64,000 nucleotides of DNA from Haloarcula vallismortis ATCC 29715 (lineage in GTDB: Archaea > Halobacteriota > Halobacteria > Halobacteriales > Haloarculaceae). The DNA lies in the NCBI RefSeq assembly GCF_000337775.1, contig NZ_AOLQ01000004.1, positions 124,001 through 188,000 of the forward strand, in the 5' to 3' direction. This document shows positions 3,445 to 4,646 of the stretch, piece after piece. Position 1 is the first letter of the stretch. Each line of letters begins with the position of its first letter. The notes beneath the pieces were generated by a model. It worked only from the letters and a program-made list of their open reading frames with translations. It ran no database searches and was not told the DNA's origin. A program made the position numbers and the translations under genes.

Positions 3445-3560
3445 GTTTGGTAGTTCCCCTTGGGTAAGACGGCCCGGACGGAGCGTGTTTACGCCCCGCA
3501 CGAGTGTTTACACAGCGAAACCGCAGTACGGGGGCGGCATCCCCCCGCGTTCGTCGCTGT

Positions 3561-3578
3561 GTAAGACGACCGTCTTAC
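3561..3578. promoter_or_regulatory. palindromic operator upstream of cdrS-ftsZ2
   Basis: GTAAGACGACCGTCTTAC has two perfect 8-bp arms around a 2-bp centre. On the minus strand it lies just downstream of an AT-rich TATA-like stretch (about 3602-3611), so it would sit at the transcription start of cdrS-ftsZ2; a second TATA-like element abuts it at 3582-3589. A lone half-site GTAAGACG recurs at 3464-3471, nearer the cdrS start. It is a candidate site for CdrL and/or CdrS; binding is inferred. Confidence 0.65.
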
Positions 3579-3643
3579 GCAGAATAAACCACTGACCCTG
3601 ATGTATTAAAACTTACGGGCAGTGTCATACACTTTCCCGTTTA

Positions 3644-3678
3644 CAGCGTTTGAGGGCTTCTATCTGGCGTAAACGCTG
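3644..3678. terminator. hairpin just downstream of cdrL
   Basis: An 8-bp inverted repeat, CAGCGTTT at 3644-3651 and AAACGCTG at 3671-3678, with a 19-nt loop. It begins 2 bp past the cdrL stop codon on the minus strand. It could terminate or stabilise the cdrL transcript, or be another protein-binding site. No clear U-tract follows. Confidence 0.35.
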
Positions 3679-3680
3679 AC

Positions 3681-4307
3681 TTAGGTCTGATCGAGCACAT
3701 CTGCTGCAGGCGTTCGTCTCCCACAGCCCGGGCAGAATCCCCAGTCTGACCGGAGTTCATCGCCGCAATCACAGAACACTCGACGGGACGACTTCTCACC
3801 GCAGTTCGGGCAGTAAACGTGGTCAGAACCCAGATTCTCACCGCATTGCGCGCATGTCTTACGTTCCTCTGTGTCGGACCTGTCCCGCGTTTCCGGCTCT
3901 GTCTTACGCCCGCTCCTGTCGGATGCCTGATGTTCACTGTGAGACCGCTCGTCCTCTGCACTCGCACCACGGTCAGCGGTGCGCCGTCGCTCGGTCTCGG
4001 CGTTCGCTGCCCCTCCGCTTACGCCGTCTAACGAGATGTTTACGTTGACATCCTGTGGTGGCGAGCGGTGGTGTCGCGTTTGCAGTCGGTCGGCGATGAT
4101 ACTGTCGACACGTTCTTCGATGAGTTCGTCAATTGTCTCGGCGTCGGTCACGGACTCTGACGCCGATGACGGTGGCTCCGACGCTGACGCAGAGGCGTCT
4201 CCGAGATACTCCCGGAGCGCTTCGCGCATGACCTCGCTCTTCGAGGCGTCGAACGCCTCGAGTTGGTCGATGAGGTCATCGTCAGCACGGAACGTTATCT
4301 TACTCAT
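3681..4307 (-). CDS. cdrL: cell division regulator CdrL: RHH domain plus zinc ribbons
   Basis: A 208-residue two-part protein. Residues 1-35 are a ribbon-helix-helix (MSKITFRADDDLIDQLE, then SKSEVMREALREYL). A long acidic, Ser/Asp/Arg-rich linker runs to about residue 145. The C-terminal ~60 residues hold two zinc ribbons with Cys pairs CAQC, CPNC, CDC and CPGC. In other haloarchaea the homologue binds the cdrS-ftsZ2 promoter (established knowledge). It lies directly upstream of cdrS on the same strand, with its own promoter: AT-rich elements at 4322-4345 and palindromes at 4358-4474. The zinc ribbons may mediate protein contacts; that part is inference. Confidence 0.85.
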   Translation of the reverse strand: MSKITFRADDDLIDQLEAFDASKSEVMREALREYLGDASASASEPPSSASESVTDAETIDELIEERVDSIIADRLQTRHHRSPPQDVNVNISLDGVSGGAANAETERRRTADRGASAEDERSHSEHQASDRSGRKTEPETRDRSDTEERKTCAQCGENLGSDHVYCPNCGEKSSRRVFCDCGDELRSDWGFCPGCGRRTPAADVLDQT

Positions 4308-4357
4308 CGGACTCGGTGAAGGTATTATACAGGATGGTATTTTAATCTTCCCGCGCT

Positions 4358-4474
4358 GTCTGACGCCCGTCAGCTACCGGCATGACGCGATACCGCTCTT
4401 CCCGCTCAGATTCCGCTCGGAGACTACGTTGACCGGTCTATCAGACATCTGTGAGCGGGTCAGACGTGTCTGAC
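4358..4474. promoter_or_regulatory. cluster of palindromic half-sites upstream of cdrL
   Basis: CTGACG-CC-CGTCAG is a perfect palindrome at 4360-4373, just upstream of the cdrL TATA-like region. GTCAGAC-GT-GTCTGAC is a perfect palindrome at 4459-4474, and a single TCAGAC lies at 4441. The half-site GTCAGAC differs by one base from GTAAGAC in the cdrS operator. The spacing suits dimeric RHH proteins; function is inferred. Confidence 0.5.
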
Positions 4475-4572: not shown

Positions 4573-4646
4573 CCGCCCTTAGCTCAGACTGGTAGAGCAG
4601 TCGACTGTAGATCGACTTGTCCCCCGTTCAAATCGGGGAGGGCGGA
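4573..4646 (+). tRNA. tRNA-Tyr (GTA anticodon)
   Basis: A 74-nt cloverleaf. The acceptor stem CCGCCCT/AGGGCGG is fully paired with discriminator A. The D arm contains AGCTC...GAGCA. The anticodon stem GTCGA/TCGAC holds loop CTGTAGA with anticodon GTA at 4607-4609, and the T arm has GTTCAAATC. The C1-G72 pair is the archaeal/eukaryal tyrosine identity element. No intron is visible, and CCA is not encoded at the 3' end. Confidence 0.95.

Follow-up and report, generated by a model that had tools for sequence, protein, structure and literature searches.

How the levels of the division tubulins are set in archaea is the question that the cdrS-ftsZ2 locus raises, CdrS and CdrL being among the few division regulators known in these organisms. 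The window analyzed here, by which we mean the whole stretch of 64,000 nucleotides of Haloarcula vallismortis DNA, carries on its minus strand cdrL (4307-3681), cdrS (3444-3268) and ftsZ2 (3265-2024). The first encodes a protein with an N-terminal ribbon-helix-helix domain and C-terminal zinc ribbons, whose cysteine pairs are invariant and which has homologues in 367 of 392 genomes; the second encodes a small ribbon-helix-helix protein of 58 amino acids, whose N-terminus (10 residues) is the same in 78 of 79 loci; and the product of the third matches the FtsZ family above the curated cut-off. An earlier note on this DNA had proposed that related palindromes upstream of cdrS and cdrL belong to an autoregulatory circuit in which CdrL and/or CdrS set the level of FtsZ2. 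The letters do lie where it had placed them, with GTAAGACGACCGTCTTAC at 3561-3578, GTCAGACGTGTCTGAC at 4459-4474, GTAAGACGG from 3464, TCAGAC from 4441, and CTGACGCCCGTCAG at 4360-4373. A perfect 7-bp inverted repeat, however, was also obtained in 10% and 13% of the shuffles of the two intergenic regions, so that on this genome alone the palindromes are within chance and it is their conservation across genomes that has to decide. Conservation, helix pairing, covariation, copy number, and site classes were all computed here.

On alignment, the two palindromes behaved very differently. The one upstream of cdrS is almost invariant in 71 aligned leaders, whereas the one at 4459-4474 (a 7-2-7 arrangement) is genus-specific, as the block GACACGTCTGACC that contains it is shared by 14 close Haloarcula and lacking in relatives further away. 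The cdrS palindrome (O2; 3561-3578, minus strand) consists of arm A1, GTAAGAC (3572-3578), and arm A2, GTCTTAC (3561-3567), separated by a 4-bp spacer. On the tree of 71 loci, A1 underwent no substitution and A2 underwent two, and GCGTAAGACGG-NN-GTCTTAC is almost unchanged upstream of cdrS in the named haloarchaeal loci retrieved by means of CdrS; one locus (L041) was excluded because of a run of N over the palindrome region upstream of cdrS in the assembly. This palindrome is, moreover, essentially single-copy per genome: with at most one mismatch allowed, 7 of 10 genomes have one copy of GTAAGAC-N4-GTCTTAC and 2 of 10 have two, the second copy in both cases being a 1-mismatch site, while the Halorhabdus palindrome, whose spacer is 6 nt, was missed by the N4 pattern search.

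The location of the palindrome relative to the promoter is equally constrained. The TATA box of cdrS-ftsZ2, TTTTAATA (3604-3611, minus strand), lies at a near-fixed distance from it, and a TATA-like box begins 32 bp upstream of arm A1 in 62 of 92 loci. Based on TATA spacing, transcription is predicted to start at the G of GCGTAAGAC (position 3580, minus strand), in which case the palindrome would span about +3 to +20 of the cdrS-ftsZ2 mRNA; being downstream of the predicted start site, it should be transcribed. A cdrS 5' UTR and transcription start site are marked in a figure of PMC8406309. The transcript that we predict in Haloferax, with a 123-nt leader followed by about 1,390 nt, fits the published bicistronic cdrS-ftsZ2 mRNA of ~1,500 nt, and fits less well the published monocistronic cdrS RNA of ~250 nt, which is somewhat short for a 123-nt leader and a 61-codon ORF. 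Further upstream we found a half-site (O1; GTATGAC, in its general form GTMWKAC; 3624-3630, minus strand) located 12 bp upstream of the TATA box. Across loci, O1 is matched in at least 6 of 7 positions in 88 of 92 cases (about 14 expected) and perfectly in 57 (0.6 expected), and mostly ends 13-14 bp upstream of the TATA box. Because it lies upstream of the promoter and outside the transcript, we take it to be read as DNA. The arrangement, a dyad near the promoter of a ribbon-helix-helix gene plus an upstream half-site, is that of a ribbon-helix-helix operator. In a family of loci that is probably Halobacterium and kin (L270, L271, L272, and L276), the upstream half-site belongs to a fuller dyad, GTAAGAC then GTTTAC, so that two dyads flank the cdrS TATA box there.

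Once transcribed, the arms of the palindrome are predicted to have partners elsewhere in the leader, which is about 110-120 nt long and holds four related segments: A1 and A2 in the palindrome, A3 in the middle, and A4 before the ribosome-binding sequence. Arm A4, CCGTCTTAC (3464-3472, minus strand), sits directly upstream of the GGGG ribosome-binding sequence and is the 3' strand of a helix, P1, in which it pairs with 3570-3578; the A3 region, TCGCTGTGTAAACA (3505-3518, minus strand), is the 3' strand of a second helix, P2, and pairs with 3554-3567. The two palindrome arms are thus the 5' strands of two leader helices, A1:A4 and A2:A3, and the supposed extra half-site at 3464, although real and conserved, is conserved as the RNA pairing partner of arm 1. 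The combination of A1:A4 with A2:A3 is the minimum-energy fold in 74 of 79 leaders, and many leaders add a hairpin, P4, between A3 and A4, which results in a three-way junction. Our covariance model (R1) describes the whole element, with P1, P2 with its apical stem, and P4, and places it at 3463-3582 on the minus strand of the window. The folding z of 45 representatives averages -5.5, every one of them being below -2; for the P4 segment alone the mean z is -1.2, folding energy being the one kind of support available for this hairpin. The leader also holds a short upstream ORF (3508-3540, minus strand; ATG CCG CCC CCG TAC TGC GGT TTC GCT GTG TAA), which ends in arm A3 and looks lineage-specific, as the matching ATG is missing in several leaders (e.g., L012 and L016).

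Inverted half-sites that are repeated along a sequence will be complementary to one another, and a reading in which the palindrome and the extra half-sites form nothing other than an operator array for CdrL and/or CdrS, with RNA complementarity as a by-product, had to be considered. The near-invariance of A1, A2, and A4, the position of O1 outside the transcript, the essentially single-copy palindrome, and the single CdrL ChIP peak found in the accessible text of PMC7439475 all speak for such an array. In P2, however, both complementarity and covariation reach 5-6 bp past the half-site. In this extension, leaders scored 445 with their own partners compared to 343±10 when partners were swapped, with a maximum of 382 over 2000 swaps. 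Two-sided cells numbered 98 compared to 46±5 in shuffles, with 0 of 500 shuffles as high, and the covariation was repeated in 46 loci outside model building (187 compared to 113±8.5), these two sets of pair counts being taken from alignments of related sequences. On the tree, the extension showed 19 compensatory same-branch events, compared to 2.7 in mismatched column-pair controls. Because RNAalifold, applied to the trimmed alignment, returned P1 alone, P2 was tested explicitly and on the tree. P1 is paired in 99.4% of alignment cells, and since its core pairs hardly vary, its covariation comes from the terminal pair only. This pair alternates between G-C, G-U, and A-U, with seven two-sided changes, and where A1 ends in A rather than G, A4 nearly always carries T (7 A-U pairs and one A-C); taken by itself, P1 has 2 compensatory events on the tree. 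Finally, the pairing survives in Haloarcula, the window included, although the half-site core of A3 (GTAAACA) is lost there. In light of the P2 extension, the terminal pair of P1, and the Haloarcula A3, we regard an array of DNA sites with incidental complementarity as unlikely. What is found upstream of this gene is a conserved secondary structure with covariation, and it suggests a second, RNA-level control of FtsZ2.

The opposite reading is that a role in RNA is what preserves the arms, possibly by way of a two-state switch in which an A1:A2 hairpin forms first and is then replaced by A1:A4 and A2:A3, and that no protein sits on the palindrome DNA. Several observations would agree with it: the pairs of an alternative fold, A1:A2 with A3:A4, are 95% formable; one leader (L241) folds best as A1:A2 with a different downstream pairing; the palindrome persists in genomes without cdrL; and it is missing from the CdrS ChIP targets in the accessible portions of PMC8406309. 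The alternative pairs, however, do not covary above shuffles, and we rejected this fold as a conserved structure. Furthermore, the A3 arm accumulated 24 substitutions on the tree compared to 0-2 in A1, A2, and A4, and that A2 stays near-invariant while its RNA partner drifts argues that RNA pairing alone is insufficient to explain the palindrome. The same can be said of one locus (L240, in genome G010) where the palindrome is kept despite arm A4 being missing, so that P1 cannot form there. With O1 lying outside the transcript and a published CdrL ChIP peak upstream of cdrS-ftsZ2, an explanation by RNA alone seems to us improbable.

If a protein does bind the palindrome, its identity is ambiguous. 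According to the available text of PMC7439475, CdrL gave a ChIP-seq peak nowhere but upstream of cdrS-ftsZ2, published there without a motif, and the near single-copy palindrome matches this lone peak. On the other hand, nine genomes in which a profile search found no full-length cdrL, spread over five genera (g2, g28, and g38, together with part of g4 and of g12), keep an intact cdrS palindrome. Conservation of the palindrome therefore does not track the presence of cdrL, and we rejected CdrL as the sole reason for it. In these genomes (G012, G039, G003, G026, G038, G187, G283, G224, and G387), cdrL seems either to have been lost or never to have been acquired, and cdrS was kept. CdrS, present in all nine, is the obvious alternative binder, but ChIP does not place it there: as far as the accessible portions of PMC8406309 report, the 18 CdrS sites of H. 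volcanii do not include the cdrS and cdrL promoters, which counts against CdrS at these two promoters in Haloferax under those conditions.

The cdrL promoter, in turn, carries a different element. A site that we consider CdrS-type, AGCTGAC-GGGC-GTCAGAC (4358-4375, minus strand), lies 12 bp upstream of the cdrL TATA box, TTAAAATA (4338-4345, minus strand), which is conserved downstream of the site as TT(G/A)AAATA. The palindrome reported at 4360 is part of this conserved element, while the half-site at 4441, though its letters are present, is not conserved. Across loci, GTCNGAC-N4-GTCNGAC is matched in at least 10 of 12 positions in 58 of 79 cdrL promoters (0.1 expected), and ends about 13 bp upstream of the TATA box; it recurs at similar spacing in the ftsZ1 promoter (12 of 12 positions in 8 of 9 genomes), and in weaker versions (9-10 of 12) at Haloferax dacZ and psmB. 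Since ftsZ1, dacZ, and psmB are CdrS ChIP targets in the accessible portions of PMC8406309, we took GTCNGAC-N4-GTCNGAC as the CdrS motif. The window's genome has three more perfect sites of this type besides that of ftsZ1 (G000:C38:67125-67142, G000:C69:197211-197228, and G000:C69:327675-327692). A tRNA gene, probably Tyr, lies divergently upstream of cdrL (4573-4646, plus strand), and such a tRNA neighbor recurs in many other families.

When the cdrL site is set against the GTAAGAC-N4-GTCTTAC of cdrS, no single half-site is common to both promoters, which carry two different, related site classes; the shared GT(A/C)AGAC of the earlier note is inexact. In the ribbon-helix-helix fold, the N-terminal strand is tied to DNA contacts. 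The near-invariant and similar strands of the two proteins (MERVTLR in CdrS and MSKITFR in CdrL) are in keeping with half-sites that would be related but distinct. That one half-site serves the same protein at both promoters in simple autoregulation is scarcely credible: both classes are, admittedly, 7-mers of the form GT..GAC, mostly at 4-bp spacing, and RVTLR resembles KITFR, but the conserved cdrL-promoter site is of the class seen at ftsZ1, the palindrome at 4459 is genus-specific, and that of cdrS is kept without cdrL.

The reading that we favor, and to which we would give roughly two chances in three, is that the cdrS palindrome is a dual-use sequence, at once DNA operator and part of a structured leader, within a cross-regulatory loop of CdrS and CdrL. 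Here we infer the protein at the palindrome, the sign of the regulation, and the effect of the leader. As DNA, the palindrome would serve a ribbon-helix-helix protein as its operator where transcription begins, in concert with the half-site that precedes the TATA box by about 13 bp; a protein bound at the start site would most likely repress initiation, and the upstream half-site would most likely activate or tune the promoter. As RNA, its arms would provide the 5' strands of two helices in the conserved leader, arm 1 pairing just before the ribosome-binding sequence and arm 2 with the mid-leader segment, and the third hairpin would complete the three-way junction, so that the extreme 5' end is tied to the ribosome-binding region. 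Such a leader would most likely set translation or stability of the cdrS-ftsZ2 mRNA. The loop would be closed by the CdrS-type sites at the cdrL and ftsZ1 promoters and by the binding of CdrL upstream of cdrS-ftsZ2. A ribbon-helix-helix circuit, as first proposed, is well supported by the CdrL peak, with its match in the essentially single-copy palindrome, and by the motif at CdrS targets in what is accessible of PMC7439475 and PMC8406309, although not in its original form, given the two site classes, the lineage-specific palindrome at 4459, the persistence of the cdrS palindrome without cdrL, and a CdrS ChIP lacking the cdrS promoter; and the leader helices formed by the arms and by the segment at 3464 would add a post-transcriptional layer that the transcriptional reading had left out.

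Post-transcriptional control of this operon was in fact suspected before, as Ribo-seq and RNA-seq in H. salinarum revealed a mismatch between its mRNA level and ribosome occupancy (PMC8303175). If our reading is true, a near-universal cdrS-ftsZ2 leader adds an RNA layer that could account for such mismatch. Within the order, our covariance model matches 363 of 392 genomes, with a single copy in nearly all of them. Searching phylum-wide (197 genomes), we obtained 30 matches, all within the window's own order, and occurrence outside haloarchaea was accordingly rejected. Given that 72% of the protein-coding transcripts of H. volcanii are leaderless (PMC4983044), so deeply conserved a leader is unusual. 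A broader proposal would be that of a haloarchaea-wide class of regulatory RNA controlling FtsZ2 synthesis, in which an operator-forming leader can first fold as an A1:A2 hairpin and then rearrange into the A1:A4 and A2:A3 junction, and protein occupancy or a cell-cycle signal sets transcription and translation from one 18-bp sequence; we put it forward tentatively, as possible but doubtful. An 18-bp sequence constrained at once by DNA binding and by RNA pairing would also be useful as a test case, since the two constraints can be told apart with single and compensatory mutants.

With regard to known systems, the lac operator is likewise a palindrome that lies where transcription begins and is copied into the 5' end of the message. 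Unlike in the lac operator, the cdrS arms are predicted to pair mainly with two downstream segments rather than with each other, and do so with covariation. Proteins of the CopG/Arc/MetJ ribbon-helix-helix type bind half-sites, in tandem or inverted, close to the promoters of their own genes, and there, as here, a ribbon-helix-helix gene is found beside a short dyad overlapping the start site; the cdrS dyad differs from such operators in that it would itself be transcribed, with arms that take part in conserved RNA helices, while the protein bound to it is putative. Among structured haloarchaeal mRNA leaders, the S15-Halobacteria ribosomal-protein leader (RF03143) is already in Rfam, and belongs to a different gene with a different architecture; a search of the region with this family gave a sole match, not significant, at the tRNA (16.7 bits compared to a cut-off of 49). 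Searched against Rfam as a whole, the cdrS leader had no match, the neighboring tRNA alone passing the gathering threshold, and we found no described cdrS or ftsZ2 leader RNA in the open-licence literature. A close precedent is provided by the work on the regulons of CdrL and CdrS in Halobacterium salinarum and Haloferax volcanii (PMC7439475 and PMC8406309), which concerns the same genes and promoters: the accessible portions report CdrL ChIP at cdrS-ftsZ2 and CdrS ChIP at ftsZ1, dacZ, and psmB, where we found the GTCNGAC-type motif, and make no mention of a start-site palindrome, a leader structure, a cdrL-promoter motif, or the persistence of the palindrome without cdrL. Start-site operators and structured leaders are both known kinds of element; their combination, which we did not find in Rfam or in the open-licence literature, is what appears to be new here, namely putative operator arms that double as 5' strands of covarying helices in the leader of an archaeal division operon.
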